DNA of 64,000 bases from Aspidapion aeneum (Eukaryota > Arthropoda > Insecta > Coleoptera > Brentidae). The stretch's first letter is position 1, and each line of letters begins with the position of its first letter. Shown in pieces: positions 2,345-25,920 of this stretch. Location of the stretch: assembly GCA_963576565.1 (NCBI GenBank), contig OY755039.1, forward strand, positions 21,345,102-21,409,101, read 5' to 3'. The notes below the pieces were generated by a model that ran no database searches, was not told the DNA's origin, and saw only the letters and a list, made by a program, of their open reading frames with translations. The position numbers and the translations under genes are program-made.

Positions 2345-2800
2345 CAGAGTGGTCCAAATAGGACACTTTTGATAGGAAACGCCTATTTCTAGAGGAGATA
2401 ATATAGAGAAAAAAACTAACCTGCATTTTGCGAACTCGATTTTCGTGCCTGAAGTTATCGACATCCACATCGTCACATCGTCATTTTTTACAGCGGACCA
2501 AACAAATAGTGTTTGTGGTAAATGAAAATCTCACTGGGGCTATTTTTAAGAGGCTCTGATGTTTGTAAATTACTAAAGCAGTTCCACCGAATCGAGAAGG
2601 GTGGAAATCAAGTAAAATTAGGATAATTTTCCAGCGTTTTTCAATATTAGAGCAATAAAATTAGATCAAAATAATGGGTTGACAAAAGGTTTAAAATTGC
2701 AGTGCTGAAGTGATAACATTGTTTAAATATTGGTTTAAGGCTTATTATGTATTAACAATTAACACTCCCAAGAAACAAAACTATCATTAGACAGTTGGTT
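2345..2800 (+). repeat. Left terminal inverted repeat, non-satellite part
   Basis: This segment is almost identical to the reverse complement of 24481-24837 plus 25615-25719; the gap in the right copy is a nested MITE. It links the TA-flanked terminus to the first satellite monomer. The few differences from the right copy are mostly single bases. Confidence 0.8.
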
Positions 2801-5800
2801 TTAATAGGCCGGTAAAATAGGACCAAAAAAAAAGAAAATTATATTTGACATGAAATTCAAAGTTATAGCGCTTACGTTAGCGGCAGCTTAATGGAACCTT
2901 TCAATGCTTTTTAGAAACAAAAGTGTCATTTGTCACGTTACCTTAATAGGCCGGTAAAATAACCACAAAAAAAATTATATTCATTTGACATGAAATGCGC
3001 GCTTGTAGCGCTTGGATAATAGTGGCAGTTTAATGGTACCTTTCAATGCTTTCTAGAAACAAAAGTCTCATTTGTCACTTTACCTTAATAGGCCGATAAA
3101 ATAAGAACAAATAAAAAAAGCAATATTCATTTGACATGAAATGCGCGCTTGTAGCGCTTGGATAATAGTGGTAGTTTAGTGGTACCTTCCTGTGCTTTCT
3201 AGAAACAAAAGTCTCATTTGTCAATTTACCTTAATAGGCCGGTAAAATAAGACCAAATAAAAGAAAACTATATTGATTTTTATATGAAATGCGCGCTTGT
3301 AGCGCTTGGATAATAGTGGTAGTTTAATGGTACCTTCAAGTACTTTCTAGAAACAAAGTTGCTATTTGTCAATTTACCTTAATAGGCCGGTAAAATAAGA
3401 ACAAATAAAAAAGAACAATATTCATTTGACATGAAATTCGCGCTTGTAGCGCTTAGATAATAGTGGCAGTTTAATGGGACCTTCCAATGCTTTCCAGAAA
3501 CAAAAGTGTCATTTGTCAATTTACCTTAATAGGTCGGTAAAATAAGACCAAATAAAAGAAAACAATATTGATTTCTATATGAAATGCGCGCTTGTAGCGC
3601 TTGGATACTAGTGGCAGCTTAATGATACCTTTCAATGCTTTCTAGAAACAAAAGTGTCATTTGTCACTTTACCTTAATAGGCCGGTAAAATAAGAACAAA
3701 TAAAAAAATAACAATATTCATTTGACATGAAATTCGCGCTTGTAGCGCTTGGATAATAGTGGCAGTTTACTGGTACCTACCAATGCTTTCTAGAAACAAA
3801 AGTGCCGTTTGTCAATTTACCTTAATAGGCCGGTAAAATAAGACAATATAAGAGAAAACAATATTGATTTTGCATGAAATGCGCGCTAGTAGCGCTTAGA
3901 TAATAGTGGCAGTTTAATGGGACCTTCCAATGCTTTCCAGAAACAAAAGTGTCATTTGTCAATTTACCTTAGTAGGCCGGTAAAATAAGAACAAATAAAA
4001 AATCAATATTCATTTGACATGAAATGCGCGCTTGTAGCGCTTGGATAATAGTGGTAGTTTAATGGTACCTTCCAGTGCTTTCTAGAAACAAAGTTGCCAT
4101 TTGTCAATTTACCTTAATAGGCCGGTAAAATAAGAACAAATCAAAAAAGAACAATATTCATTTGACATGAAATTCGCGCTTGTAGCGCTTGGATAATAGT
4201 GGCAGTTTAATGCTACCTTCCAATGCTTTCTAGAAACAAAAGTGCCATTTGTCAATTTACCTTAATAGGCCGGTAAAATAAGACCAAATAAAAGAAAACA
4301 ATATTGATTTTGCATGAAATGCGCGCTAGTAGCGCTTAGATAATAGTGGCAGTTTAATGGGACCTTCCAATGCTTTCTAGAAACAAAAGTGTCATTTGTC
4401 AATTTACCTTAATAGGCCGGCAAAATAAGACCAAATAAAAGAAAACAATATTGATTTCTATATGAAATGCGCGCTTGTAGCGCTTGGACACTAGTGGCAG
4501 TTTAATGGTACCTTTCAATGCTTTCTAAAAACAAAAGTGCCATTTGTCAATTTACCTTAATAGGCCGGTAAAATAAGACCAAATAAAAGAAAACAATATT
4601 GATTTTGCATGAAATGCGCGCTAGTAGCGCTTAGATAATAGTGGCAGTTTAATGGGACCTTCCAATGCTTTCCAGAAACAAAAGTGTCATTTGTCAATTT
4701 ACCTTGATAGGCCGGTAAAATAAGACCAAATAAAAGAAAACAATATTGATTTCTATATGAAATGCGCGCTTGCAGCGCTTGGATAATAGTGGTGGTTTAA
4801 TGGTACCTTTCAGTGCTTTCTAGAAACAAAGGTGTCTTTTGTCAATTTACCTTAATAGGCCGGTAAAATAAGACCAAATAATAGAAAACAATATTGATTT
4901 TACATGAAATGCGCGCTTGTAGCGCTTGGATAATACTGACAGTTTAATGGTACCTTCAAGTACTTTCTAGAAACAAAAGTGTCGTTTGTCAATTTACCTT
5001 AATAGGCCGGTAAAATAAGACAATATAAAAGAAAACAATATTGATTTTGCATGAAATGCGCGCTAGTAGCGCTTAGATAATAGTGGCAGTTTAATGGGAC
5101 CTTCCAATGCTTTCCAGAAACAAAAGTGTCATTTGTCAATTTACCTTAATAGGCCGGTAAAATAAGACCAAATAAAAGAAAACAATATTGATTTCTATAT
5201 GAAATGCGCGCTTGTAGCGCTTGGATAATAGTGGTAGTTTAATGGTACCGTCAAGTGCTTTCTAGAAACAAAAGTGCCATTTGTCAATTTACCTTAATAG
5301 GACGGTAAAATAAGACCAAATAAAAGAAAACAATATTGATTTTGCATGAAATGCGCGCTAGTAGCGCTTAGATATTAGTGGCAGTGTAATGGTATCTTCT
5401 TGTGCTTTCTAGAAACAAATGTGTCATTTGTCACTTTACCTTAATAGGCCGGCAAAATAAGAACAAATAAAAGAAAACAATAGTGATTTGACATATTTGG
5501 ATAATAGTGGCAGTTTAATAGTACCTTCCAATGCTTTCTAGAAACAAAAGTGTTATTTGTCACTTTACCTGAATAGGCCGGTAAAATAAGACAAAATATA
5601 AACATCACAAATTTAATTTCACTTAAAATTCGAACTTGTAGCGCTAAAGTAATAGTGGCAGTTTAATGTTATCTTTCAAGCATTTCCAAAATCATAGGTG
5701 TTATATGATACTTTGCCTTAATAGGCCGATAAAATAAGACTAAATATAAAAACCACAAATTCGATTTCACATGAAATTCAAACTTGTCGCGTTAAACTAA

Positions 5801-5965
5801 TATTGGCAGTTTAATGCATCTTTCAACGCTTTTTAAAGACAAAATTGTCATTTGTCACTCGAGTTGATGATGAGGATTCGAACTTTTAACGGTTTTAGTT
5901 AATAGGGCAGATTAATGGCATCTTCTACATATTTCTAAAGGCATAAGTATCATTTGTCAGATTAC
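2801..5965 (+). repeat. Left satellite arm, ~147-bp monomers (about 21)
   Basis: Successive copies of TTAATAGGCCGGTAAAATA occur at spacings of 142-148 bp. Each monomer also contains GCGCGCT, AGCGCTT, AGTGGCAGTTTAATGG and CTTTCTAGAAACAAA. Copies near the core (after about 5580) are degenerate and shortened. The same monomer in reverse orientation forms the right arm. Confidence 0.9.
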
Positions 5966-6031
5966 CTCACCACTAAAATAAGTTTGTAGCGCTTGGAATA
6001 TAGAAACTATTAAATGTAATTCTATAACTCC

Positions 6032-6228
6032 CCCACACAGCACAAATCAAAATAACGTTAAAAACACACTTTTTTTAGTTTAATAGGTCGCTTTTTAACG
6101 TTATTTTCAAAACCACGTTATTTCGGTGTGATATTAATGTGGTTTTATAAATAACGTTAAAAAAAAGCAACTATTAAACTTAAAAAAAGTGTGTGTTTTT
6201 AACGTTGTTTTGATTTGTGCTATGTGGG
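6032..6228. mobile_element. Hairpin MITE
   Basis: The left arm starts CCCACACAGCACAAATC and the right end is its near-complement ending GCTATGTGGG. Arms of roughly 75-80 bp pair through AACGTTAAAAACACAC. It is non-coding and small, with no clear target duplication. Confidence 0.65.
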
Positions 6229-6339
6229 TCCTAAAAGTTTTTTTCAGTTTGCTCTAATAGACTGGTAATATAATATAAGGCCACAAATAAGCTTGACTTA
6301 AGGACTTACTGCCATCCTTTAAACCTTAAAGAAATCTTA

Positions 6340-6932
6340 GGGCACGGTAGTGCCTCGCCAAGTTCGCGCGCCGTAACCATCTTTTCTGGAAACATTTCAG
6401 CCGATATTTGACCTACCCAAAACTCTACTTCGAAATGAGCGACGAATCTCAAACTTTGCACAGTCGTAGATCTCCATAGAGTTAACAACCCCTCCAAGTT
6501 TCATGGAATTCCATAGAGTAGCAAAGTAGTTAATAGGACAAAATTTAAAAACACGACAATTTTAATTTATTTCCCTCCCCTATACATGTAAAGTTATGTA
6601 AAAGTAACATTGTGCACTGTCAGAAACGCTAGAGAGCTGAGCTTTGGAAGGCTGATAGGAACTACGATAAAACCATGGAAAAAAATCTCAAAAATTTAAG
6701 TAAGGCATTGCAAAAGTTTTGAACAAAATTCCGCATATTTTACTACTTTAAAAATTAAGTATTATCGAATTCCTTTAAAAGGGGTTGTTAACTCCATGGA
6801 GATCTACGACTGTGCAAAGTTTGAGATTCGTAGCTCATTCCGAAGTAGAGTTTTAAGCAGGTCAAATATCGGCTGAAATGTTTCAAGAAAAGATGGTTAC
6901 GGCGCGCGAACTTGGCGAGGCACTGCCGTGGC
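6340..6932. mobile_element. Non-autonomous TIR element (GGGCACGG ends)
   Basis: Inverted arms of about 165 bp begin GGGCACGGTAGTGCCTCGCC on the left and read GGCCACGGCAGTGCCTCGCC inward from the right. The interior has the CCCTCCCCTATACATGTAAAG block also seen in tandem at 47428-48290, so both belong to one family. The 63-codon ORF inside is a shadow of the TIR. Confidence 0.65.
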
Positions 6933-6949
6933 CTCAGATTACGTTTTTT

Positions 6950-8105
6950 ATTACAAGAATGGCGGATCCAAAATAGCAGATATTTTTATTTTTAAACCAA
7001 TTTGTCTCAAACTCTCAATACAGTTTTATCCTAAAACTGAAAAAACTTAAAATGGCGGATCCAAAATGACGGATTTTCTTATATCGATATGTATCAAATA
7101 CAGAACTTGACGGTGTATTAAGTCGCTGATTTTGGTTTTTGACTCAAACTCATAAAAAATCAAAATGGCGGATTTCTTTATATTTAAACCGATTTGCCTC
7201 AAACTTGAAAGTACGCATCATTTAATACAGTTTTATCCTCAAACTTAAAAAATTCAAAATGGCAGATCCGAAATGGTGTACTTTCTTATTTATAAACCGA
7301 TGAGTATTAAATTTAGAAATTAGCGCTGTTTTAAGTCGCTGATTATCATTTTTGAAATAAACTTATAAAAGATTCACAATGGCGAATCCAAAATAACGGT
7401 ATTTCTTATTTACTAACCGATGTGTCTCAAGCCCAAAACATTATATTGCTTTTTCTAAGTTTTAGACAAATCGGTTAGTAAATAAAAAAGTCCGCAATTC
7501 TGGAATCGCAATTTTAAATTTTTGATGAGTTTGAGTCAAAAATCATAATCAGCGACTTGAAGCACCTACAAAGTTCTATATTTGACACATATCGGTGCAT
7601 AAGTCAGAAAATCCGCCATTTTGGATCCACCATTTTAATTTTTTTAAGTTTCAGGATAAAACTGTATTAAGTGATCTCAAGCACTGCAAACTTTTAAGTT
7701 TGAGACAAATCAGTTTAAAACTAAAGAAATCCACCATTTTGGATATGCCAATTTAAATTTTTTATCAGTTTTAGTCAAAAATCCTAATCAGCGACTTGAA
7801 ATACCGCCAAGTTCTATATTTGATACATATCGGTGCATAAATAAGAAAATCCGCCATTAAAATTTTTTTAAGTTTCAGAATAAAACTGTATTAAGTGATC
7901 TCAAGCAGTGCAAACTTTAAAGTTTGAGACAAATCGGTTTAAAACTAAAGAAATCTACCATTTTGGATCTGCCATTTTGAATTTTTTATCACTTTGAGTC
8001 AAAAATCATAATCAGCGACTTGAAATACCGCCAAGTTCCATATTTGATACATGTCGTTGCATAACTAAGAAAATTCAACATTTTGAATCCGTCATTTTAA
8101 GTTAG
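6950..8105. repeat. Palindromic block with ATGGCGGAT repeats
   Basis: Forward repeats (ATGGCGGATCCAAAATG spaced along 6958-7400) are followed from about 7440 by the same sequences in reverse (AAATCCGCCATTTTGGATCC). Motifs such as AAGTCGCTGATTTTGG and GTGATCTCAAGCA recur. It would fold back on itself. No coding sequence is seen. Confidence 0.6.
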
Positions 8106-11100
8106 GTTCAGCCGTTTAGAAACTAGCGTATAAGCATATGCATATGAAACCTTAATTATGGAGTTCTTAGGTCCGCTGAATACAAATCTGTAAGAAGGAA
8201 AAGATTTGGAGGTAATCTGGGGGAGTGGAGGATATTCATGGCGTAAGCACTAAATGGAGACTCAACAATAAATTTTATTTAAGTTTTTCTTATAGATTTT
8301 GACAGCTCTACTCAACCCTGTCATAATATTAGCAAACTCATTTGTTGAGCTTAATTTACCATTTTGAAATATTCAAGATGGCGGCCGACGGTAAAAAGTC
8401 AGAAGAGCATATGCATGAGATACACCTATCCGAGGAATTTTGGGTTTAATAAATCTGAGGTCAGAGCGAACCTATGGCCCATTTTTGCAAATTTTGCAAT
8501 AAGCTGCCACTATAACCAAAACGCGACAAGTTCGCATTTCATGTGAAATCAAATTTGTGTTTTTTATATTTGGTCTTATTTTACCGGCCTATTAAGGTAA
8601 AGTGACAAATGGCACTTTTGTCTCTAGAAAGCATTGGCAGGTACCATTAAACTGCCACTATTATCCAAGCGCTACAAGCGCGAATTTCATGCAAAATCAA
8701 TATTGTTTTCTTTTATTTGGTCTTATTTTACCGGCCTATTAAGGTAAATTGACAAATGGCACTTTTGTTTCTAGAAAGCATTGGAAGGTAGCTTTAAACT
8801 GCCACTATTATTCAAGCGCTACAAGCGCGAATTTCATGTCAAATGAATATTGTTCTTTTTTTATTTGTTTTTATTTTACCGGCCTATTAAGGTAAATTGA
8901 CAAATGGCAACTTTGTTTCTAGAAAGCACTGGAAGGTACCATTAAACTATCACTATTATCCAAGCGCTACAAGCGCGAATTTCATGCAAAATCAATATTG
9001 TTTTCTCTTATATTGTCTTATTTTACCGGCCTATTAAGGTAAATTGACAAACGACACTTTTGTTTCTAGAAAGCATTGAAAGGTACCATTAAACTGCCAC
9101 TAGTATCCAAGCGCTACAAGCGCGCATTTCATATAGAAATCAATATTGTGTTCTTTTATTTGGTCCTATTTTACCGGCCTATTAAGGTAAATTGACAAAT
9201 GACACTTTTGTTTCTGGGAAGCATTGGAAGGTCCCATTAAACTGCCACTATTATCTAAGCGCTACTAGCGCGCATTTCATGCAAAATCAATATTGTTTAC
9301 TTTTATTTGGTCTTATTTTACCGGCCTATTAAGGTAAATTGACAAATGACACTTTTGTTTCTGGAAAGCATTGGAAGGTCCCATTAAACTGCCACTATTA
9401 TCTAAGCGCTACTAGCGCGCATTTCATGCAAAATCAATATTGTTTTCTTTTATTTGGTCTTATTTTACCGGCCTATTAAGGTAAATTGACAAATGGCACT
9501 TTTGTTTCTAGAAAGCATTGGAAGGTAGCATTAAACTGCCACTATTATCCAAGCGCTACAAGCGCGAATTTCATGTCAAATGAATATTGTTCTTTTTTTT
9601 ATTGTTCTTATTTTACCGGCCTATTAAGGTAAATTGACAAATGGCAACTTTGTTTCTAGAAAGCACTTGAAGGTACCATTAAACTACCACTATTATCCAA
9701 GCGCTACAAGCGCGCATTTCATGCAAAATCAATATTGTTTTCTCTTATATTGTCTTATTTTATCGGCCTATTAAGGTAAAGTGACAAATGACACTTTTGT
9801 TTCTAGAAAGCATTGAAAGGTACCATTAAACTGCCACTAGTATCCAAGCGCTACAAGCGCGCATTTCATGCAAAATCAATATTGTTTTCTTTTATTTGGT
9901 CTTATTTTACCGGCCTATTAAGGTAAATTGACAAATGGCACTTTTGTTTCTAGAAAGCATTGGAAGGTAGCTTTAAACTGCCACTATTATTCAAGCGCTA
10001 CAAGCGCGAATTTCATGTCAAATGAATATTGTTCTTTTTTTATTTGTTTTTATTTTACCGGCCTATTAAGGTAAATTGACAAATGGCAACTTTGTTTCTA
10101 GAAAGCACTGGAAGGTACCATTAAACTATCACTATTATCCAAGCGCTACAAGCGCGAATTTCATGCAAAATCAATATTGTTTTCTCTTATATTGTCTTAT
10201 TTTACCGGCCTATTAAGGTAAATTGACAAACGACACTTTTGTTTCTAGAAAGCATTGAAAGGTACCATTAAACTGCCACTAGTATCCAAGCGCTACAAGC
10301 GCGCATTTCATATAGAAATCAATATTGTTTTCTTTTATTTGGTCCTATTTTACCGGCCTATTAAGGTAAATTGACAAATGACACTTTTGTTTCTGGGAAG
10401 CATTGGAAGGTCCCATTAAACTGCCACTATTATCTAAGCGCTACTAGCGCGCATTTCATGCAAAATCAATATTGTTTACTTTTATTTGGTCTTATTTTAC
10501 CGGCCTATTAAGGTAAATTGACAAATGGCACTTTTGTTTCTAGAAAGCATTGGAAGGTAGCATTAAACTGCCACTATTATCCAAGCGCTACAAGCGCGAA
10601 TTTCATGTTAAATGAATATTGTTCTTTTTTTATTTGTTCTTATTTTACCGGCCTATTAAGGTAAATTGACAAATGGCAACTTTGTTTCTAGAAAGCACTT
10701 GAAGGTACCATTAAACTACCACTATTATCCAAGCGCTACAAGCGCGCTTTCCATGCAAACTCAATATTGTTTTCTCTTATATTGTCTTATTTTACCGGCC
10801 TATTAAGGTAAATTGACAAATGGCACTTTTGTTTCTAGAAAGCACTTGAAGGTACCATTAAACTGTCAGTATTATCCAAGCACGACAAGCGCGCATTTCA
10901 TGTAAAATCAATATTGTTTTCTATTATTTGGTCTTATTTTACCGGCCTATTAAGGTAAATTGACAAATGACACCTTTGTTTCTAGAACGCACTGGAAGGT
11001 ATTATTAAACTACCACTATTATCCAAGCACCACAAGCGCGCATTTCATATTGAAATCAATATTGTTTTCTTTTATTTGGTCTTATTTTACCGGCCTATTA

Positions 11101-13069
11101 AGGTAAATTGACAAATGACACTTTTGTTTCTGGAAAGCATTGGAAGGTCCCATTAAACTGCCACTATTATCTAAGCGCTACTAGCGCGCATTTCATGCAA
11201 AATCAATATTGTTTTCTTTTATTTGGTCTTATTTTACCGGCCTATTAAGGTAAATTGACAAATGGCACTTTTGTTTCTAGAAAGCATTGAAAGGTACCAT
11301 TAAACTGCCACTAGTATCCAAGCGCTACACGCGCGCATTTCATATAGAAATCAATATTGTTTTCTTTTATTTGGTCTTATTTTACCGGCCTATTAAGGTA
11401 AATTGACAAATGACACTTTTGTTTCTAGAAAGCATTGGAAGGTCCCATTAAACTGCCACTATTATCTAAGCGCTACTAGAGCGCATTTCGTGCAAAATCA
11501 ATATTGTTTTCTTTTATTTGGTCTTATTTTACCGGCCTATTAAGGTAAATTGACAAATGGCACTTTTGTTTCTAGAAAGCATTGGAAGGTAGCATTAAAC
11601 TGCCACTATTATCCAAGCGCTACGAGCGCGAATTTCATGTCAAATGAATATTGTTCTTTTTTTATTTGTTCTTATTTTACCGGCCTATTAAGGTAAATTG
11701 ACAAATGGCAACTTTGTTTCTAGAAAGCACTGGAAGGTACCATTAAACTATCACTATTATCCAAGCGCTACAAGCGCGAATTTCATGTCAAATGAATATT
11801 GTTCTTTTTTCATTTGTTCTTATTTTACCGGCCTATTAAGGTAAATTGACAAATGGCAACTTTCTTTCTAGAAAGCACTTGAAGCTACCATTAAACTGTC
11901 AGTATTATCCAAGCGCTACAAGCGCGCATTTAATGTAAAATCAATATTGTTTTCTATTATTTGGTCTTATTTTACCGGCCTATTAAGGTAAATTGACAAA
12001 TGGCACTTTTGTTTCTAGAAAGCATTGGAAGGTAGCATTAAACTGCCACTATTATCCAAGCGCTACAAGCGCGAATTTCATGTCAAATGAATATTGTTCT
12101 TTTTTTATTTGTTCTTATTTTACCGGCCTATTAAGGTAAAGTGACAAATGACACTTTTGTTTCTAGAAAGCATTGAAAGGTACCATTAAACTGCCACTAG
12201 TATCCAAGCGCTACAAGCGCGCATTTCATATAAAAATCAATATTGTTTTCTTTTATTTGGTCTTATTTTACCGGCCTATTAAGGTAAATTAACAAATGAC
12301 ACTTTTGTTTCTAGAAAGCATTAGAAGGTAACATTAAACTGCCAGTATTATCCAAGCGCTACAAGCGCGCATTTCATGTGAAATCAATATTGTTTTCTAT
12401 TATTTGGTCTTATTTTACCGGCCTATTAAGGTAAATTGACAAATGACACGTTTGTTTCTAGAAAGCACTGGATGGTACCATTAAACTACCACTATTATCC
12501 AAGCGCTACAAGCGCGAATTTCATGTAAAATAAATATTGTTATTTTTTTATTTGTTCTTATTTTACCGGCCTATTAAGGTAAAGTGACAAATGACACTTT
12601 TGTTTCTAGAAAGCATTGAAAGGTACCATTAAACTGCCACTAGTGTCCAAGCGCTACAAGCGCGCATTTCATATAAAAATCAATATTGTTTTCTTTTATT
12701 TGGTCTTATTTTACCGGCCTATTAAGGTAAATTGACAAATGACACTTTTGTTTCTAGAAAGCATTGGAAGGTCCCATTAAACTGCCACTATTATCTATGC
12801 GCTACTAGCGCGCATTTCATGCAAAATCAATATTGTTTTCTTTTATTTGGTCTTATTTTACCGGCCTATTAAGGTAAATTGACAAATGGCACTTTTGTTT
12901 CTAGAAAGCATTGGAAGGTAGCATTAAACTGCCACTATTATCCAAGCGCTACAGGCGCGAATTTCATGTCAAATGAATATTGTTCTTTTTTTATTTGTTC
13001 TTATTTTACCGGCCTATTAAGGTAAATTGACAAATGGCAACTTTGTTTCTAGAAAGCACTTGAAGGTAC

Positions 13070-13673
13070 TGAAAGGGTAGGGTTAAGGTTATTTCAGCAT
13101 GGAGGGTATAAACTAGGGTACGCGTGGTTCCAATCCTGTTTGAATCCCGGTTCTTGGGTTCAAGACACTCAATAGTAGTAAACGAAAAAATTTAAGTTAA
13201 AAAGCAAGCTCGACTTACCTATTATTCCAGGAACGTAAATTCTGGAAGGAAACCGGCACTATCACCCGCGTGGGTATTGTTCAGAAAAAACCGCAAGGTT
13301 AAAATTGTGACGTATATGTCGATATATGAACGACGGCTGTAGTCATGAGTGTGTGTGTGCTCGATGCTTCCTTGTTTTGGCACAGCGCGCAGCGGCTCGC
13401 GCGCCGGTGGTTTCCACACAGTCCATTCTTCAGTGCAGAAGGAAGTAGGGGTAGGAAGGGTGGAAACACCTAATAAGGGATGCAAGGAAAAGTGCGTCGA
13501 GCTTGATAATTATTTAGAGTAAAAGTAAATTAAACGCGCAAATTTCTATTTGCAATAGTGTAGTAAAATTAACTAGAAAAACAAAAAAAAAAATAATAAT
13601 AATACTAAATTCTAAAAACTTCCCAAAAACGTTACAAACAAAAATAAAGCAATATGAGGGCGAGAACGAACCA
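13070..13673 (-). repeat. 3' LTR of the BEL/Pao element
   Basis: In element orientation it starts TGGTTCGTTCTCGCC and ends CCCTACCCTTTCA. It is essentially identical to 19209-19813. An 87-codon ORF within it exists twice only because the LTR is duplicated. Confidence 0.93.
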
Positions 13674-13685
13674 TTTCCCACCCCC
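13674..13685 (-). other. Polypurine tract of the BEL/Pao element
   Basis: Read on the minus strand this is GGGGGTGGGAAA, abutting the 3' LTR start, as expected for the plus-strand DNA primer site. Confidence 0.75.
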
Positions 13686-13703
13686 ATGAAATGCCGCGCA
13701 ATT

Positions 13704-16700
13704 TCATTCATGAGAAGTAGGAGGGGGCAGTGGGCAAAGTTTAACTAGTGGTCTTTTATAGACGCCTTTGTTAGTTTTAACCACTGCAACCCTTGGAACC
13801 TTATCAGTTCCGTAGAATAATTCGATAATTCGGCCAAGTGGCCAATCTAAAGGAGACGCATTTTCGTCTTTTATAAGCACGAGAGTACCAATAGTGACCG
13901 AGCTCATGCCCTCAAGCCACTTCGCTCTTTGCTGCAGCGTATGTAAATACTCGGTTCTCCACCGTTTCCAAAAATCCTGTTGGATTCTAACTAAAAGTTG
14001 CCACTCAATGGATTCTTGTTTTGCACAATCTTCGAATATTTTACGTAAGTATTTATCAGCAGAAACAAAATTCGTGCCACAATCTGTGTAAATGTGCTGA
14101 ATTCTGCCTCTTCTAGCCATAAACCGGCGCAGAGCGGCCAAAAAGGCATCAGTAGACATATCCGAAACCAAGTCAATGTAAACGCATTTTACGACACAGC
14201 AAATAAATAGGCAAACGTAGGATTTAACTATCTTAAAACTACGCAACTTTGACGTTTTAATGTCAAAAGGGCCGCAGAAATCGATTCCTACTTGTGAGAA
14301 GGGTTTGGCTTGACATAATCGAAATTTGGGCAAATTTCCCATAGGGGGTTGAAAAGCAATGGGGTTAGTTTTCCAACATGGAAGGCAACTGTGCAATATT
14401 TTGCGGACCACTCGTTTAGCAGCAAGGATCCAAAAGGATTGAAAAAATAAAAATAAAGTGGTCTGTAATCCGCAGTGTAAATAAGTGATATGTATATCTT
14501 TAATAAGCAATGTGGTAAAAATGCAATTATTAGGTAAAAGCAAGGGGTATTTTTTGTCAAAGCATAAATCCGAATGACTCAAGCGACCGCCCACTCGTAA
14601 TAAGCCCGTTTCAGCTTCCAAAAACGGATTTAACCTTTTTATTGCCCTATTGTTTATTGGCCTATTTTCTTGCAACAAACTAATTTCCTTTTTAAAATAA
14701 ATAGATTGGAAATGTTTAATTATAAAAAGTAAAGCGCGATACAACTCAACATTCGTTAAATATGGCTTCTTAATTTTATTTTTATTTTTAAAATTTTCAA
14801 CAGCGCGCAAAAAAAATCCTACAATTCTTTTTATCGCGGATAGCGAACTATATTTTTCAAATAAATTATCAATAAAACTTTTTTGCACGAAAATCGTAAG
14901 GTTCAAACTATTAATCAAATTGCATTTTTCCTTTTGTGATTCTTCGCATGAAGGCAAATTATATTTCGTAAATGACCAGGTATCTACAGGGTCATATAAA
15001 AAATCTGGACCTTTGGACCATTGAGTAAAATTTAAAAAATCGCTTGGGTACATCCCCCTTGACCCGCAGTCAGATATATTCATAGCCGAAGGGACATATA
15101 ACCAATATTCGGGATTTATGCGTTCCTGAATGTAAGCCGCCCTATTCGCAACATAGGTTTTCCAGTTATGCGCAGAGCCTTTTATCCAATCTAACGCGCA
15201 TTGGCTATCAGAAAACGCAAAAATATTTTCAAAAGTTATTTTACTTGAAAAAGTCTCATAAATAAAGGTTAAAAGTTTACAAAGTAAAACACAGCCGCAT
15301 AGCTCTAAACGGGGAATACTTTGTCTTTTAAGGGGAGCTAATTTTGATTTACCAGCCACAAAAAAATTCTGAATAGTATTATCCGAGTAGGTACACCGTA
15401 TATAAACCACGCAGCAATAGCCAAGTTCACTGGCATCACTAAACCCTACTAATTGAGCTGTAGTATAGTTAAAAATATTTATTTTCCTAGGAATAGTAAA
15501 ATTTTGTAAAAAAGAAAGTTCAGATTTAAATTTTTCCCATTTTGACAAAACTTCCGGGGGTACCTTTTCATCCCATTGAAGACCAACAGACCAACAATAC
15601 TGTACCAGTGCCTTTCCATAAAAAGTAACTGGCGTCAAGAATCCGCATGGATCATACATTCTTGCCAGGTCACTAAGTATAGTTCTTTTGGTGCACACTG
15701 TATGTCTGCTGTCCTCAAAAGAGTAGAAAAAATGGTCTTTTACTGGATTCCATTTTAAGCCCAGAATTTTTTGTGTATTATCGCAATCTTGATCAAAAGA
15801 TAAAGCATTGGTTTGAATATGGGATTGAGGCAGATCTTGTAATAATCGGGGGTCATTACTGGTCCATTTTCTAGCCTCAAAGTTACCCTTTCCTAAGAGC
15901 TCAATTAGTTGATTTTTTAATAAAATCGCGTTTTTTAAATCGAAACTACCGGTCGTCACATCGTCAATGTACGTGGATTCCCTAAGTACCTGTGCAGCCA
16001 GGGGCAGTTCCGGGTAATCAGTGGCAAGTTGTAAAAGAGTTCGTATCGCAAGATACGGGGAGCAGGAAACTCCAAAAAGTACAACGTTTATTTCGTAATC
16101 TGTGATAGGTTCGTGTGGCGAAAAACGCCAAAGTATTCTTTGAAATTTATGTTGACTTGGGTCAATAGCAATTCTTCTGTACATTTGTTTCAAATCGCAA
16201 GTGAAACAAACTTCATGTAATCGAAATTTAAGAATAATAGCAACTAAATCTTGTTGCAATTTAGGCCCTGTATACACAGCAGAGTTAAGAGAGACCTTAT
16301 TAGCCGCATGGCTTGAGGCGTCATACACAATCCTCATAGGGGTTGTTAAGGAGTCTTTTTTAAAGACAGCATGATGACTGATGTAGAAAAAATTGTGCAT
16401 CTCAGCATCCGAGGGCGGCGCAACTTTAGTCATGTGCCCCTGGTCTATATAATCTTGCATAACCTCGGAATAAATAGAATTAAAAGATTGATTAAAAAGT
16501 AACCGTCTTTCCAACGAAAAAAATCTGCGCAAAGCAAGAGTGCGCGTGTCTCCAAAATCGGGAGACGTGACTTTAAGCGGCATGGAGACGATGTAACGCC
16601 CCATGGAGTCCCTTTTAGTAGTTTCCTGAAAGTATGTTTCACAAAAAACGTCCTCTGGGGCAAAATGTTTTTTGCTAGGCACTTCCTCTACTTCCCAAAA

Positions 16701-18785
16701 CTTTTGTAGCGTAGAATCAAGAGATTGATTTTCCGATAAAGTAAAAAAAGCGCTACTTTTTAGTGAACAAGAAGAGGTTTCTTTAACTTTACCTAGAAGC
16801 GTCCAACCGAAAGAGGTATTTATACAGACAGGTTTATCAGGGCCGTTATTTATTCTCCCGTCTTGTAAAATATAGGGAAAAATGTCATTTCCAAGTAAAA
16901 AATCGATTTTTTCCGATTTATTAAAATAGGGATCAGCCAAGGTTAAGTTATCGATAAAGTGCCAGTCCTGCAAGTTATAAGGAACTGATGGTTTATTATC
17001 ACAAATTTTATCAATCACAAAAAATGGTGTATTTATTGAAAATAGAGGGTCCACTAGGGAGCCAATAGTACAATTTATGTAAAAATTAGCAGTCGAGTTC
17101 ATTTGATCTAACCCCTGTAGGGTCATTTGTATTTTGCATTTAGGTAGACCTAATTTATTCGCGAAATTTTTTGTTATGAAACTGCTTTGGGCTCCAGAGT
17201 CCAAAATGGCACGGCCTACATGCCAATTATTAAAAACATCTTTAATTTTAATTAGTACGGTAGAGAGCATGACCTCATGATGATTAAGTAACATGCCAAC
17301 AGTAGTGCTTTGCTGACCGCTAGAGATTTGCTGACCAGTGGAAGTGGGTTGACTTGTTGAGGTCAAAAATGGCTGACTCACGGGAATCCCAGGGAGGGCA
17401 GCGGATGTGCTCTGAATAGCTAGTACCGAAGAATGGGTAGAATCAGTATAATTAGGGGTAGTATTATTCGTATAGTTATGAGTAGGTGACCCTTGCGCAT
17501 TATTAGTTGCAAAGCATAAAAGAGAATGATGAAACTTGGCACAATGTAAGCACCTTTTTGTGGTCTTGCACCCGATCTGCGTGTGCGCAGACGCGAGACA
17601 GTTGATACAAGCTCGTCGAGCTTTAATAATATCAAAACGCTCCTGAGGACATTTCTGCAAAAATGAAGGACACTGGAAAATAATATGTTTACCTTGACAC
17701 AGTAGGCACGAAAGGTTTTTATTATTGCTAGCATCAGTAGAGCTATTATTCTGTCGGTCTTCCGAGTTCACAAAAAATGTAGAACGGTTATTTCTATTAT
17801 TAGAAGACGAAGAAAAAGTCGTAGAGCGCGTAATATTTTTACTTATTGTAGCGGGTTGAGGTTGAGGTTCCTTTTGAGGAAGAGCCTCAAGGGCAGTGCA
17901 TTGCCTGGACACAAAATCTTTAAGAATATTGAATTTCGGTATTTCCGTGGACGCGTGTTCCTTTTCAAAGGCCTTTCTGGTCGAGTTGTCTAGCCGATCT
18001 AGGAACATCATAGTTAAAATAAAGTCTGAAAGCGCCGCATTTTCCAACTTAAAGTTTTTTAAAGCCGCTAAATTTTTCGTAAAGGTGTCGATTAAATTAC
18101 GTAAACCTATTGCATTTTCAGATTTAAGGGGAGTAATATTTTCCATTTTTTTCCAGTGTGTCTCGGCCCTCAGGCGTTTATTATTATACCTATCGAAAAG
18201 AGTAGAATACGCAATATGGTAATTTTCGTTAGTTATCGGTATATCTGAAATAAGGTCCAAGGGAGGGCCTTCTAAGTAAGAAACTAAAATATTAAATTTT
18301 TCTAAATTAGTGGCCTTAGTAGAGGTGTGAACCATCGTATTAAACGTTTGTTGAAAGGTGGGAAATTGTTTTAAATCACCCTTAAATGGAACCAATTTCA
18401 TTTTTGGAATCAAAGTATTTTCCGAGTGGCAAACGAACGTACTATTATGATCTGGGGAAGCTATCGAGAGATCCTCACTTGCTTTTTCAAACAGTTCATA
18501 GTGAATCGTTTGAATATCTTGGGATTTTTGAAAAAAATCCTCAAAAAAAGCATTTTCAATGGCAACTTTTGCCGCATCCGTAGCAACCAAAGTAAGCACA
18601 GAATTATGGTGTTTTTCAAAGTCCTTTTCGAATTTTTTAAGCGATCTAAACCCCACCTTAAGTTTATTATGTAAGGAAGGATCAGTTTTTGCCTTTTCAG
18701 CAGTGGAAAAAAGGTATTTTAATTGTTCCATGGCCGTATTACGTAAAACCGTGGAACGGATAATTTTTTCCTGTGTTGTAGGCAT
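13704..18785 (-). CDS. BEL/Pao gag-pol polyprotein, integrase core deleted
   Basis: This single 1693-codon ORF encodes the retrotransposon polyprotein. A gag-like DUF1759 region starts near residue 130. Cys/His zinc knuckles lie at about 358-420 (CLLCQGKH, CINC, CLHC). An aspartic protease has its active site at about 525 (ILDSGAQSSF). The Pao-type reverse transcriptase has its catalytic box at about 939 (YIDDVTTG). An RNase H-like region is near 1190 (AFSDSQCALDWI). The integrase zinc-binding segment is at about 1432-1470, and the two integrase aspartates lie in VGIDFCGPF (~1498) and YTDCGTNF (~1566). A DUF5641-like C-terminus follows. After IEW at about 1593 the sequence jumps directly to QLLVRIQQDFWKRW. 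In the family roughly 100 residues, including the catalytic glutamate, lie between these. The reading frame stays open, so the deletion is in frame and integrase should be inactive. Confidence 0.92.
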   Translation of the reverse strand: MPTTQEKIIRSTVLRNTAMEQLKYLFSTAEKAKTDPSLHNKLKVGFRSLKKFEKDFEKHHNSVLTLVATDAAKVAIENAFFEDFFQKSQDIQTIHYELFEKASEDLSIASPDHNSTFVCHSENTLIPKMKLVPFKGDLKQFPTFQQTFNTMVHTSTKATNLEKFNILVSYLEGPPLDLISDIPITNENYHIAYSTLFDRYNNKRLRAETHWKKMENITPLKSENAIGLRNLIDTFTKNLAALKNFKLENAALSDFILTMMFLDRLDNSTRKAFEKEHASTEIPKFNILKDFVSRQCTALEALPQKEPQPQPATISKNITRSTTFSSSSNNRNNRSTFFVNSEDRQNNSSTDASNNKNLSCLLCQGKHIIFQCPSFLQKCPQERFDIIKARRACINCLASAHTQIGCKTTKRCLHCAKFHHSLLCFATNNAQGSPTHNYTNNTTPNYTDSTHSSVLAIQSTSAALPGIPVSQPFLTSTSQPTSTGQQISSGQQSTTVGMLLNHHEVMLSTVLIKIKDVFNNWHVGRAILDSGAQSSFITKNFANKLGLPKCKIQMTLQGLDQMNSTANFYINCTIGSLVDPLFSINTPFFVIDKICDNKPSVPYNLQDWHFIDNLTLADPYFNKSEKIDFLLGNDIFPYILQDGRINNGPDKPVCINTSFGWTLLGKVKETSSCSLKSSAFFTLSENQSLDSTLQKFWEVEEVPSKKHFAPEDVFCETYFQETTKRDSMGRYIVSMPLKVTSPDFGDTRTLALRRFFSLERRLLFNQSFNSIYSEVMQDYIDQGHMTKVAPPSDAEMHNFFYISHHAVFKKDSLTTPMRIVYDASSHAANKVSLNSAVYTGPKLQQDLVAIILKFRLHEVCFTCDLKQMYRRIAIDPSQHKFQRILWRFSPHEPITDYEINVVLFGVSCSPYLAIRTLLQLATDYPELPLAAQVLRESTYIDDVTTGSFDLKNAILLKNQLIELLGKGNFEARKWTSNDPRLLQDLPQSHIQTNALSFDQDCDNTQKILGLKWNPVKDHFFYSFEDSRHTVCTKRTILSDLARMYDPCGFLTPVTFYGKALVQYCWSVGLQWDEKVPPEVLSKWEKFKSELSFLQNFTIPRKINIFNYTTAQLVGFSDASELGYCCVVYIRCTYSDNTIQNFFVAGKSKLAPLKRQSIPRLELCGCVLLCKLLTFIYETFSSKITFENIFAFSDSQCALDWIKGSAHNWKTYVANRAAYIQERINPEYWLYVPSAMNISDCGSRGMYPSDFLNFTQWSKGPDFLYDPVDTWSFTKYNLPSCEESQKEKCNLINSLNLTIFVQKSFIDNLFEKYSSLSAIKRIVGFFLRAVENFKNKNKIKKPYLTNVELYRALLFIIKHFQSIYFKKEISLLQENRPINNRAIKRLNPFLEAETGLLRVGGRLSHSDLCFDKKYPLLLPNNCIFTTLLIKDIHITYLHCGLQTTLFLFFQSFWILAAKRVVRKILHSCLPCWKTNPIAFQPPMGNLPKFRLCQAKPFSQVGIDFCGPFDIKTSKLRSFKIVKSYVCLFICCVVKCVYIDLVSDMSTDAFLAALRRFMARRGRIQHIYTDCGTNFVSADKYLRKIFEDCAKQESIEWQLLVRIQQDFWKRWRTEYLHTLQQRAKWLEGMSSVTIGTLVLIKDENASPLDWPLGRIIELFYGTDKVPRVAVVKTNKGVYKRPLVKLCPLPPPTSHE

Positions 18786-19208
18786 TATGTAGCAAATTAA
18801 TTATTAATATCTTAAATGAATAGATGGCAACTACCTATGTATAGGTATATTTATCAAAAATTTATTAACACAAAGACACCGCAGCAAAGCGAACGGCGAG
18901 AGGACATAAAAACTGTGCGAGTTTTTTATCACCAGCTGCAGATTTGATCTCCTGTTTTTTATATATGTACTGGTCTTTTTAAAAGTATTTTAAAAGACGA
19001 AGTTTAATATTATTTTTTAATATTTATCAATATATTATATATTTTAGTATTAATTAGCAATTAAATGCACGTAAATGCGTATATTTAAGTATTGAAAAAT
19101 TTCTACACTTTGCAATAAGAAATTTACTTAGCAAATTAAGTCCTTAAAATTCCAAAAAACAGGATGATTTTAACAGGATTGAACATATCTAGGAGCGAAG
19201 GACCAAAA
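18786..19208 (-). other. 5' leader of the BEL/Pao element
   Basis: An AT-rich, 423-bp untranslated segment lies between the 5' LTR and the gag-pol start. It holds the primer-binding site at its LTR end and no other clear feature. Confidence 0.7.
19196..19205 (-). other. Primer-binding site, probably tRNA-Tyr
   Basis: Three bases inside the 5' LTR the element reads TGGTCCTTCG. This is complementary to a CGAAGGACCA tRNA 3' end, which I recall as the acceptor end of insect tRNA-Tyr. The match is 10 bases and the next bases do not extend it well. Confidence 0.55.
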
Positions 19209-19813
19209 TGAAAGGGTAGGGTTAAGGTTATTTCAGCATGGAGGGTATAAACTAGGGTACGCGTGGTTCCAATCCTGTTTGAATCCCGGTTCTTGGGTTC
19301 AAGACACTCAATAGTAGTAAACGAAAAAATTTAAGTTAAAAAGCAAGCTCGACTTACCTATTATTCCAGGAACGTAAATTCTGGAAGGAAACCGGCACTA
19401 TCACCCGCGTGGGTATTGTTCAGAAAAAACCGCAAGGTTAAAATTGTGACGTATATGTCGATATATGAACGACGGCTGTAGTCATGAGTGTGTGTGTGCT
19501 CGATGCTTCCTTGTTTTGGCACAGCGCGCAGCGGCTCGCGCGCCGGTGGTTTCCACACAGTCCATTCTTCAGTGCAGAAGGAAGTAGGGGTAGGAAGGGT
19601 GGAAACACCTAATAAGGGATGCAAGGAAAAGTGCGTCGAGCTTGATAATTATTTAGAGTAAAAGTAAATTAAACGCGCAAATTTCTATTTGCAATAGTGT
19701 AGTAAAATTAACTAGAAAAACAAAAAAAAAAAATAATAATAATACTAAATTCTAAAAACTTCCCAAAAACGTTACAAACAAAAATAAAGCAATATGAGGG
19801 CGAGAACGAACCA
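19209..19813 (-). repeat. 5' LTR of the BEL/Pao element
   Basis: This is identical to the 3' LTR except for one extra A in a poly-A run. It contains the expected promoter by position; I could not assign an individual TATA box with confidence. Confidence 0.93.
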
Positions 19814-20091
19814 GGTACCATTAAACTACCACTATTATCCAAGCGCTACAAGCGCGCATTTCATGCAAAATCAATATTGTTTTCTCTTATATTGTCTTAT
19901 TTTACCGGCCTATTAAGGTAAAGTGACAAATGACACTTTTGTTTCTAGAAAGCATTGAAAGGTACCATTAAACTGCCACTAGTATCTAAGCGCTACTAGC
20001 GCGCATTTCATGCAAAATCAATATTGTTTTCTTTTATTTGGTCTTATTTTACCGGTCTATTAAGGTAAATTGACAAATGGCGTTTTTGTTT

Positions 20092-23000
20092 CTAGAAAGC
20101 ATTGGAAGGTAGCATTAAACTGCCACTATTATTCAAGCGCTACAAGCGCGAATTTCATGTCAAATGAATATTGTTCTTTTTTTATTTGTTTTTATTTTAC
20201 CGGCCTATTAAGGTAAATTGACAAATGGCAACTTTGTTTCTAGAAAGCACTGGAAGGTACCATTAAACTATCACTATTATCCAAGCGCTACAAGCGCGAA
20301 TTTCATGCAAAATCAATATTGTTTTCTCTTATATTGTCTTATTTTACCGGCCTATTAAGGTAAATTGACAAACGACACTTTTGTTTCTAGAAAGCATTGA
20401 AAGGTACCATTAAACTGCCACTAGTATCCAAGCGCTACAAGCGCGCATTTCATATAGAAATCAATATTGTTTTCTTTTATTTGGTCCTATTTTACCGGCC
20501 TATTAAGGTAAATTGACAAATGACACTTTTGTTTCTGGGAAGCATTGGAAGGTCCCATTAAACTGCCACTATTATCTAAGCGCTACTAGCGCGCATTTCA
20601 TGCAAAATCAATATTGTTTACTTTTATTTGGTCTTATTTTACCGGCCTATTAAGGTAAATTGACAAATGGCACTTTTGTTTCTAGAAAGCATTGGAAGGT
20701 AGCATTAAACTGCCACTATTATCCAAGCGCTACAAGCGCGAATTTCATGTCAAATGAATATTGTTCTTTTTTTATTTGTTCTTATTTTACCGGCCTATTA
20801 AGGTAAATTGACAAATGGCAACTTTGTTTCTAGAAAGCACTTGAAGGTACCATTAAACTACCACTATTATCCAAGCGCTACAAGCGCGCTTTCCATGCAA
20901 ACTCAATATTGTTTTCTCTTATATTGTCTTATTTTACCGGCCTATTAAGGTAAATTGACAAATGGCACTTTTGTTTCTAGAAAGCACTTGAAGGTACCAT
21001 TAAACTGTCAGTATTATCCAAGCACGACAAGCGCGCATTTCATGTAAAATCAATATTGTTTTCTATTATTTGGTCTTATTTTACCGGCCTATTAAGGTAA
21101 ATTGACAAATGACACCTTTGTTTCTAGAACGCACTGGAAGGTATTATTAAACTACCACTATTATCCAAGCGCCACAAGCGCGCATTTCATATTGAAATCA
21201 ATATTGTTTTCTTTTATTTGGTCTTATTTTACCGGCCTATTAAGGTAAATTGACAAATGACACTTTTGTTTCTGGAAAGCATTGGAAGGTCCCATTAAAC
21301 TGCCACTATTATCTAAGCGCTACTAGCGCGCATTTCATGCAAAATCAATATTGTTTTCTTTTATTTGGTCTTATTTTACCGGCCTATTAAGGTAAATTGA
21401 CAAATGGCACTTTTGTTTCTAGAAAGCATTGAAAGGTACCATTAAACTGCCACTAGTATCCAAGCGCTACACGCGCGCATTTCATATAGAAATCAATATT
21501 GTTTTCTTTTATTTGGTCTTATTTTACCGGCCTATTAAGGTAAATTGACAAATGACACTTTTGTTTCTAGAAAGCATTGGAAGGTCCCATTAAACTGCCA
21601 CTATTATCTAAGCGCTACTAGAGCGCATTTCGTGCAAAATCAATATTGTTTTCTTTTATTTGGTCTTATTTTACCGGCCTATTAAGGTAAATTGACAAAT
21701 GGCACTTTTGTTTCTAGAAAGCATTGGAAGGTAGCATTAAACTGCCACTATTATCCAAGCGCTACGAGCGCGAATTTCATGTCAAATGAATATTGTTCTT
21801 TTTTTATTTGTTCTTATTTTACCGGCCTATTAAGGTAAATTGACAAATGGCAACTTTGTTTCTAGAAAGCACTGGAAGGTACCATTAAACTATCACTATT
21901 ATCCAAGCGCTACAAGCGCGAATTTCATGTCAAATGAATATTGTTCTTTTTTCATTTGTTCTTATTTTACCGGCCTATTAAGGTAAATTGACAAATGGCA
22001 ACTTTCTTTCTAGAAAGCACTTGAAGCTACCATTAAACTGTCAGTATTATCCAAGCGCTACAAGCGCGCATTTAATGTAAAATCAATATTGTTTTCTATT
22101 ATTTGGTCTTATTTTACCGGCCTATTAAGGTAAATTGACAAATGGCACTTTTGTTTCTAGAAAGCATTGGAAGGTAGCATTAAACTGCCACTATTATCCA
22201 AGCGCTACAAGCGCGAATTTCATGTCAAATGAATATTGTTCTTTTTTTATTTGTTCTTATTTTACCGGCCTATTAAGGTAAAGTGACAAATGACACTTTT
22301 GTTTCTAGAAAGCATTGAAAGGTACCATTAAACTGCCACTAGTATCCAAGCGCTACAAGCGCGCATTTCATATAAAAATCAATATTGTTTTCTTTTATTT
22401 GGTCTTATTTTACCGGCCTATTAAGGTAAATTAACAAATGACACTTTTGTTTCTAGAAAGCATTAGAAGGTAACATTAAACTGCCAGTATTATCCAAGCG
22501 CTACAAGCGCGCATTTCATGTGAAATCAATATTGTTTTCTATTATTTGGTCTTATTTTACCGGCCTATTAAGGTAAATTGACAAATGACACGTTTGTTTC
22601 TAGAAAGCACTGGATGGTACCATTAAACTACCACTATTATCCAAGCGCTACAAGCGCGAATTTCATGTAAAATAAATATTGTTATTTTTTTATTTGTTCT
22701 TATTTTACCGGCCTATTAAGGTAAAGTGACAAATGACACTTTTGTTTCTAGAAAGCATTGAAAGGTACCATTAAACTGCCACTAGTGTCCAAGCGCTACA
22801 AGCGCGCATTTCATATAAAAATCAATATTGTTTTCTTTTATTTGGTCTTATTTTACCGGCCTATTAAGGTAAATTGACAAATGACACTTTTGTTTCTAGA
22901 AAGCATTGGAAGGTCCCATTAAACTGCCACTATTATCTATGCGCTACTAGCGCGCATTTCATGCAAAATCAATATTGTTTTCTTTTATTTGGTCTTATTT

Positions 23001-23484
23001 TACCGGCCTATTAAGGTAAATTGACAAATGGCACTTTTGTTTCTAGAAAGCATTGGAAGGTAGCATTAAACTGCCACTATTATCCAAGCGCTACAGGCGC
23101 GAATTTCATGTCAAATGAATATTGTTCTTTTTTTATTTGTTCTTATTTTACCGGCCTATTAAGGTAAATTGACAAATGGCAACTTTGTTTCTAGAAAGCA
23201 CTTGAAGGTACCATTAAACTACCACTATTATCCAAGCGCTACAAGCGCGCATTTCATGCAAAATCAATATTGTTTTCTCTTATATTGTCTTATTTTACCG
23301 GCCTATTAAGGTAAAGTGACAAATAACACTTTTGTTTCTAGAAAGCATTGAAAGGTACCATTAAACTGCCACTAGTATCTAAGCGCTACTAGCGCGCATT
23401 TCATGCAAAATCAATATTGTTTTCTTTTATTTGGTCTTATTTTACCGGTCTATTAAGGTAAATTGACAAATGGCGTTTTTGTTT
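20092..23484 (-). repeat. Second copy of a 3.39-kb satellite block
   Basis: This matches 9950-13069 continued at 19819-20091 (the BEL element interrupts the first copy) with the same rare variants in the same order: AAGCACGACAAGCG, GCGCTTTCCATGC, CTACACGCGCGC and TACTAGAGCGC. The offset is 10142 bp, or 3393 bp after removing the BEL insertion and its target duplication. The duplication therefore predates the BEL insertion. Confidence 0.85.
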
Positions 23485-24480
23485 CTAGAAAGCATTGGAA
23501 GGTAGCATTAAACTGCCACTATTATCCAAGTGCTACAAGCGCGAATTTCATGTCAAATGAATATTGTTCTTTTTTTATTTGTTCTTATTTTACCGGCCTA
23601 TTAAGGTAAATTGACAAATGGCAACTTTATTTCTAGAAAGCACTTGAAGGTACCATTAAACTGCCAGTATTATCCAAGCGCTACAGGCGCGCATTTCATG
23701 TAAAATCAATATTGTTTTCTATTATTTGGTCTTATTTTACCGGCCTATTAAGGTAAATTGACAAATGACACGTTTGTTTCTAGAAAGCACTGGAGGGTAC
23801 CATTAAACTACCACTATTATCCAAGCGCTACAAGCGCGAATTTCATGTCAAGTGAATATTGTTCTTTATTTATTTGTTCTTATTTTACCGGCCTATTATG
23901 GTAAAGTGACAAATGACACTTTTGCTTCTAGAAAGCATTGAAAGGTACCATTAAACTGCCACTAGTATCCAAGCGTTACAAGCGCGCATTTCATATAAAA
24001 ATCAATATAGTTTTCTTTTATTTGGTCTTATTTTACCGGCCTATTAAGGTAAATTGACAAATGAGACTTTTGTTTCTAGAAAGCACAGGAAGGTACCACT
24101 AAACTACCACTATTATCCAAGCGCTACAAGCGCGCATTTCATGTCAAATGAATATTGCTTTTTTTATTTGTTCTTATTTTATCGGCCTATTAAGGTAAAG
24201 TGACAAATGGGACTTTTGTTTCTAGAAAGCATTGAAAGGTACCATTAAACTGCCACTATTATCCAAGCGCTACAAGCGCGCATTTCATGTCAAATGAATA
24301 TAATTTTTTTTATTTGTGGTTATTTTACCGGCCTATTAAGATAACGTGACAAATGACACTTTTGTTTCTAAAAAGCATTGAAAGGTTCCATTAAGCTGCC
24401 GCTAACGTAAGCGCTATAACTTTGAATTTCATGTCAAATATAATTTTCTTTTTTTTTGGTCCTATTTTACCGGCCTATTA

Positions 24481-25719
24481 AAACCAACTGTCAAATGATA
24501 GTTTTGTTTCTTGGGAGTGTTAATTGTTAATACATATTAAGCCTTAAACCAATATTTAAACAATGTTATCACTTCAGCACCGCAATTTTAAACCTTTTGT
24601 CAACCCATTATTTTGATCTAATTTTATTGCTCTAATATTGAAAAACGCCGGAAAATTATCCTAATTTTACTTGATTTCCACCCTTCTCGATTCGGTGGAA
24701 CTGCTTTAGTAATTTACAAACATCAGAGCCTCTTAAAAATAGCCCCAGTGAGATTTTCATTTACCACAAACACTATTTGTTTGGTCCGCTGTAAAAAATG
24801 ACGATGTGACGATGTGGATGTCGATAACTTCAGGCACATCCGAAAACCGCACATCGATATCTTAAACTACTTACAAGATATAGGGTGGTTTTCGATTTGG
24901 TTCATTTTCGACCCACCCCCGTTACTTGTTTATTTATGAATGCTTTTTATTTCTGTAAAAACGTCCTTAAAGCACTTTTTTAATAGCAATTCAACTGTCA
25001 AATTATATTTTATCTTTCACTTTTAATTTTTAAGATATTACATAAAGTTTGTAATTTTCTTATGGAATGACCCTATTTTTATTTGATTTTTAAAATCAGC
25101 GTAAAATTTCCTTTAAAATGATGTGTCACACTAATATTTTATTATTATTTATTTTTTTTAATATTTTTTTTATTACCTCTTATTTTTTATTACTTTTTTT
25201 AGTTTGATCATTTTAAAATATTTTAAACCCGTTCACCAAACTAAAGAAAAATAAAAAAAATAAAGAGGTAACTAAAAAATAAAAATATAAAAAACAATAA
25301 AAAAAAACAAAAAATAAAATACTAAGTGTGACATGTCATTTTAAAGGAAATTTTACGCTAATTTTAAAAATGCAATAAAAAAAGGGTCATTCAATAAGAA
25401 AAATACAAACTATGTAATATCCCAAAAACTAAAAGTGACAAAATTTAATTTGACAGTTGAATTGCTCTTAAAAAAGTGCCTACAGAATGTTTTCACAGAA
25501 ATAAAAAATATTCATAAATAACCAGGTTACTGGGGTGGGTCGAAAATGCACCAAATTGAAAACCACCCTATATCTTGTAAGCAGTTCAAGATAGCGATGC
25601 GCGGTTTTCGACATTCATTTTTTAACAAAATTCAAGCTCGTAACATGTAGGTTGGTTTTTTTCTAGCTGCCCTAGAAATGGGCGTTTCCTATCAAACGTG
25701 TCCAATTTGGACCACTCTG
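24481..25719 (-). repeat. Right terminal inverted repeat, non-satellite part
   Basis: This is the reverse complement of 2345-2800, interrupted by a 771-bp MITE. The outer 100 bp (25615-25719) is somewhat more diverged from its left partner than the inner part. Confidence 0.75.
24840..25610. mobile_element. Palindromic MITE nested in the giant element
   Basis: Arms of about 370 bp are inverted copies: the left starts CCGAAAACCGCACATCGATA and the right ends GCGATGCGCGGTTTTCG. ACAT flanks both sides (24836-24839 and 25611-25614), a possible 4-bp target duplication. The centre is AT-rich. The matching left terminus of the giant element lacks it. Confidence 0.7.
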
Positions 25720-25920
25720 TACTTTAAGACTTACTTCGTTTTCTGTCTTCGGTTTTGCAAATAAAAAAACTATTACGCATTCGTTACATAATAATCTTTA
25801 TTGTGTGTACCTTTAAAAAAATAAAACTCAAAAAACCACTTAATTTCTAATGGATGTAAATTATAGTCACCGACTGTAGTTTTTATTATTATAAGTTATT
25901 TTTCTTTTTTCTGTAGAGTC

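Follow-up and report, generated by a model that had tools for sequence, protein, structure and literature searches.

A stretch of 64,000 nucleotides from the beetle Aspidapion aeneum (contig OY755039.1, positions 21,345,102 to 21,409,101 of the forward strand; hereafter the window, in whose numbering all coordinates are given) contains a foldback element of 22.4 kb, at 2445-24839, with arms made of satellite DNA. Without a nested retrotransposon its length is about 15.6 kb. Tandem Repeats Finder and a profile hidden Markov model (HMM) place 147/148-bp tandem arrays at 2801-5857 on the plus strand, and at 8496-13069 plus 19814-24511 on the minus strand. A scan with a 27-base monomer motif, allowing up to three mismatches, gave 82 matches, 20 on the plus strand left of the core and 62 on the minus strand to its right, and no match in 100 shuffles; a 26-base monomer motif had no match in viral contigs. 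The profile HMM returned 22 hits on the left and 64 on the right. Partial monomers are among these hits, and the monomer on the right that the retrotransposon splits was counted twice, so the correct numbers are 21 and 63, just as an initial annotation of this DNA had described for opposed monomers of about 147 bp.

The element begins with a unique end on the plus strand (2445-2800, GTGCCTGAAGTTATCG..., lacking an initial AT) that has 98-99% identical counterparts elsewhere in the genome. The left satellite arm of 21 monomers (2801-5857) is followed by a degenerate partial monomer reaching to about 5959. The core (5860-8495) was annotated as 2.5 kb and measures about 2.6 kb; it is a shorter version of the core found in the family, and it matches parts of the cores of E7 and E8, two further elements described below, at 96-98% identity. 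Self-comparison reveals within it a foldback (6333-6940) akin to the 142-bp repeat of the family, as well as a block of 118-120-bp repeats at 6958-8103. No transposase gene was seen in the core, whose open reading frames (ORFs) do not exceed 65 amino acids (aa). The right arm runs on the minus strand and consists of an inner part of 31 monomers (8496-13069) and an outer part of 32 monomers (19814-24511), the first of which is cut by the retrotransposon. The right unique end (24512-24839, minus strand) closes the element with the terminus ...CTTCAGGCACAT; the family terminus reads ATGTGCCTGAAG...

The right arm thus has the annotated number of copies, about 63, but not the continuity assumed for it. 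A Bel/Pao long terminal repeat (LTR) retrotransposon occupies 13070-19813 on the minus strand, with LTRs at 13070-13673 and 19209-19813 that are identical in 604 of 605 columns and bounded by TG...CA, and with a 5-bp duplication, GGTAC, at 13065-13069 and 19814-19818. Its protein domains are Peptidase_A17 (E 8.7e-49), DUF5641 and DUF1759. It is a later insertion into the satellite arm. The retrotransposon looks young, its two LTRs being almost identical, and has a single open frame of 1698 aa. Furthermore, part of the arm is a recent tandem duplication of 23 monomers that spans the retrotransposon: 19813-23211 repeats 9671-13069, 3399 bp, with 99.7% identity.

The initial annotation had set the ends of the element further out, at the TA-flanked positions 2345 and 25719, with about 450 bp of matching subterminal sequence. 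Such ends would make it a TA-inserting, Tc1/mariner-like foldback, and the outer ~105 bp (2341-2446 against 25625-25723) are inverted repeats of 80% identity with TA adjoining; the next ~326 bp inward (2445-2770 against 24512-24837) are 99% identical. A genome search with 2343-2800, in which 40 of 882 first-look candidates were scored, refutes that reading: 39 of the 40 matches begin at query positions 97-104, that is at about 2445, and so carry a satellite-element end without the left outer stretch, and the first query base is covered by the window itself only. Likewise, the right outer stretch, 24840-25723 (40 scored of 5092 candidates), matches 12 other places at 84-95% identity, from base 3-5 to base 883-886 of an 886-base query, and each of these is more than 10 kb away from all 95 satellite-element ends found in the genome. 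At one of the 12, L065, where the junction was read, a related site is uninterrupted, flanks included, and 2341-2444 aligns to its left arm. The TA-flanked ends belong to an older host miniature inverted-repeat transposable element (MITE), itself a foldback, of which 2341-2444 is the left part (TA-flanked end CAGAGTGGTCC...) and 24840-25723 the remainder. Since 24840-25723 exists elsewhere as the host MITE and L065 is uninterrupted, the TA flanks are not the satellite element's target duplication. At its own ends, 2445 and 24839, the satellite element has no TA duplication, and its other copies are flanked by duplications of 8-9 bp. The supposed ~450 bp of subterminal match mixes host MITE with a true end of about 350 bp. 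Gene conversion stopping at a nested MITE had been considered as the cause of the step from 80% to 99% identity and was dropped once the genome search put the boundary at about 2445.

Set against L065, 15 bp of the target sequence are absent from the window, and the left end of the element is without the AT that opens the family terminus. Together with one copy of a 9-bp duplication these add up to about 26 bp, which this copy appears to have lost from its left edge, one target duplication included. Directly to the right of the host MITE, at 25925-26400, ORFs resemble by eye a decayed transposase-type gene.

We found that these termini recur in the genome. A 28-base terminus has 78 exact copies, 39 per strand, and its reversed control has none. 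Extended by AT and allowing up to three mismatches, it marks 95 ends, 77 of them exact; among the 78 exact 28-mers, AT is missing at the window's left end alone. Neighbouring plus and minus ends form 32 pairs within 100 kb, compared with a mean of 10.4 and a maximum of 20 in 2000 strand shuffles, and 31 of the 95 ends fall outside such pairs. The pairs measure between 849 bp and 51.8 kb, with a median of 17.0 kb, and those up to ~52 kb may include nested insertions. The shortest pair, at G000:C4:8620739-8621587, is a possible MITE-sized member of the family. In the window itself, about 22 kb downstream of the element, 47421-48247 is another fragment of the family core; it contains 142-bp tandem repeats and is 82-86% identical to the cores of E3, E5, E7, E8 and E9.

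Nine other elements (E1 to E9) were read; they were picked from pairs among the 40 scored terminus matches and are not a random sample of the 32. All nine have opposed satellite arms, of 17-73 monomers (left/right: 19/41, 31/57, 42/39, 19/73, 39/17, 27/57, 44/72, 57/21 and 72/41), and one arm reaches a length of 10.6 kb. The tandem repeat adjoins the terminal inverted repeat (TIR) in 10 of 10 elements, the window copy included. The long TIRs, in which tandem repeats follow a unique end, enclose a variable middle, the structure that defines Foldback-type elements. Across elements the 330-bp unique ends share 99.1% identity (range 97.9-100%, 158 pairs among 19 ends, the right one of E8 having escaped detection); within an element, in the nine with both ends available, the two share 99.3%. 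For E5, the target duplication joins the outer plus end and gives a length of ~17.5 kb, against the 14.5 kb obtained when adjacency pairing uses the inner plus end.

Target duplications bear directly on mobility. E1 and E4 have the same flanks and are one insertion copied by segmental duplication; they were therefore counted once, which leaves nine independent insertions with the window copy included. Exact duplications of 9 bp flank five of these and of 8 bp another two; that of E3 is imperfect, with 7 of 8 bases matching, and the window copy has none. Mismatched flank pairs, used as a control, showed 8-10 exact bases in 0 of 70 cases. The E1/E4 duplication, along with the clustering of several copies (for example at C2:124.3-124.8 Mb), would suit a spread without transposition, through segmental duplication or the exchange of arrays among loci. 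However, the copies have sharp termini in common and different flanks, seven of nine independent insertions have exact 8-9-bp duplications, a related site is uninterrupted at L065, and three copies contain DDE transposase genes, which renders such a spread extremely unlikely. Together the data support the view that the satellite travels as part of a mobile foldback-type unit with satellite arms. Mobility had been conjectured in the initial annotation, which proposed searching for further termini, differing monomer numbers and an empty site; all three have now been found, the last in the form of the related site L065.

We examined whether the arrays travel or grow in place by comparing 793 full-length monomers from the ten elements. 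Mean monomer similarity is 0.892 within an arm, 0.892 between the two arms of one element and 0.886 between elements. Different insertions have array blocks in common, up to 11.7 monomers at 98.8% identity, and one block of 10.1 monomers keeps its register relative to the end. On the other side, 458 of the 793 monomers find their best match, alone or tied, within their own arm, which speaks against travel alone. When E1 and E4 are compared in 300-bp windows, identity stays at 99.7-100% over the left end and onward across the core as far as ~6.9 kb, and at 97-100% in the last 3 kb, yet one arm holds 41 monomers in one copy and 73 in the other. As both derive from the same insertion, this difference of 32 monomers must reflect growth or loss in place. 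The evidence points to arrays that both travel and change in place.

Arms might instead have been short at insertion, transposition seeding a few monomers only, with the arrays grown later and independently in each copy. This concerns array length at insertion, and the remainder of our explanation would stand with it. The 32-monomer difference between E1 and E4, the 23-monomer tandem duplication in the window, the own-arm best matches and the few monomers described for Tetris and Rehavkus-1_TC (PMC4079207, PMC10218199) all fit such a history. However, it predicts higher similarity within than between elements, and the means hardly differ (0.892 and 0.886); different insertions have blocks of 10-12 monomers in common, one in register from the end, and no arm among the ten elements read is shorter than 17 monomers. 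We consider short arms at insertion rather unlikely.

A DDE transposase gene and C48 protease sequence are present in three of the nine elements. Five residues, D168, D243, C289, H292 and E464, are invariant in eight relatives, a DDE/CxxH pattern that is shared with other DDE families, and the transposase matches RNase H-like folds. Among seven proteins scanned, none reached the cut-off for the Pfam MULE domain PF10551, the single hit (E 0.045, in the relative L063) falling below it, and further Pfam scans gave no PF10551 match. A C4HC3-like pattern is visible by eye in E6 and E8; Pfam PHD_ash2p_like matches it weakly (E 0.44), and the single-sequence structural model is poor (mean pLDDT 37). 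An ORF upstream of the transposase ORF (L039:6581-7103, also in E8 and E9) contains a coding tandem repeat of 72/144 bp, with 7-8 copies of 72 bp.

Members of the Rehavkus group are listed as having a minisatellite and a PHD finger and as producing duplications of 9 bp (PMC6446971). Rehavkus-1_TC of Tribolium castaneum is described as 9.5 kb long, with a 164-bp satellite in its inverted termini, mostly as five and eight monomers (PMC10218199). The family described here resembles both in its 9-bp target-site duplications and in having satellite or minisatellite in or beside inverted termini (PMC10218199, PMC6446971); where Rehavkus is reported to have a PHD finger (PMC6446971), a C4HC3-like pattern can be seen here by eye. 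Unlike Rehavkus-1_TC, it has arms that each hold 17-73 of the 147-bp monomers, and its elements reach up to 52 kb, a comparison of described features and not of sequence. An FB-NOF-like label for the transposase, given by eye only, was abandoned; published features fit Rehavkus better, short of proving membership. The closest known kind is Rehavkus, which is Mutator-related, and the family a much enlarged variant of it by likeness of features, not by proven membership. Alternatively, the unit could be a Foldback-type element whose transposase belongs to a different family, either P-like, as that of Galileo is, or hAT-like, with no more than a resemblance to Mutator/Rehavkus; we give this alternative little credence.

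Other known systems show parts of the same architecture. Tetris of Drosophila virilis has TIRs of up to 1,735 bp with a ~220-bp unit and 8-10-bp duplications, its repeats also form longer arrays, and no transposase-bearing copy was reported found (PMC4079207). Like the members of our family it is a foldback whose TIRs combine tandem repeats with a unique outer end and whose middle varies (PMC4079207); here, in contrast, one arm reaches 10.6 kb and gene-bearing copies exist. The Tm1 Mutator/Foldback elements of root-knot nematodes likewise combine composite TIRs, tandem repeats of variable number, mostly 9-bp duplications and one transposase-bearing copy, but with a 13-15-bp repeat unit and a Phantom-type transposase (PMC3169594). 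TCAST transposon-like elements also place satellite sequence within the TIRs of a dispersed beetle DNA element; they differ in having TIRs of ~269 bp, one almost complete monomer plus an inverted segment of ~121 bp, an ACT duplication and a length of up to 1,181 bp (PMC3411249). Arthropod Mutator-like elements (MULEs) share a DDE transposase, in a survey whose Mutator superfamily comprises Mutator and Rehavkus, but its complete elements measure 1,875-9,972 bp, with TIRs of 13-1,193 bp and up to 1,527 bp in the Hemiptera row (PMC13359780). A comparable scale, with a 10.6-kb arm and elements of up to 52 kb, was not met in the published descriptions compared, as far as these were available, and three sequence strings looked for in paper texts gave no match. 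The principle of a satellite in inverted termini is already published, in Rehavkus-1_TC, Tetris and the TCAST elements; of the unusual character first ascribed to these arms, it is their scale that sets the family apart.

Elsewhere in the window, a 356-bp stretch occurs twice (37909-38264 and 38867-39222, 98% identical), the second copy lying inside a C2H2 zinc-finger ORF, 38363-39478, that is Sp-like by eye. Further foldbacks are present at 39512-41424 and 42040-45070, with arms of ~510 bp (92%) and ~610 bp (95%), and 62790-64000 contains a self-inverted stretch of ~1.2 kb (80%).

We regard it as very probable that the feature in the window is a non-autonomous copy of a large family of cut-and-paste DNA transposons, probably of the Mutator/Rehavkus kind, whose TIRs consist of a unique end of ~350 bp and a long array of the 147-bp satellite, and which behaves as follows. 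The DDE transposase encoded by the rare gene-bearing copies would recognise the ATGTGCC... ends, and the whole unit would insert with the 8-9-bp target duplication seen at its copies. The satellite arms would be carried along during transposition, as the sharing of monomers between insertions suggests, and would afterwards gain or lose length where they are, probably through unequal exchange, a change of length being documented in one duplicated insertion. The window copy lacks the transposase region and would have lost ~26 bp of its left edge, one target duplication among them; the Bel/Pao element entered it later. Tentatively, and with somewhat less than even confidence, we extend this to a class of very large cut-and-paste elements, some of them bearing genes, that measure up to ~52 kb (nested insertions perhaps included) and move whole satellite arrays, several kilobases long, in each of their two arms. 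Long arrays would then be dispersed regularly by DNA transposition in this genome, and the arms would offer the transposase many binding sites and, as inverted repeats, give rise to small RNA.

How satellites arrive at new chromosomal sites is an open question, and in a common model a transposon carrying a few monomers is the starting point. In the present family, units with precise ends hold arrays of 17-73 monomers, so that both travel and in-place change are open to testing. Being inverted and kilobases long, the arms are likely to give rise to hairpin RNA and to ectopic recombination. Smaller elements of such a kind have already been described; the family in Aspidapion aeneum points to a dispersal route by which satellite DNA reaches new genomic sites.

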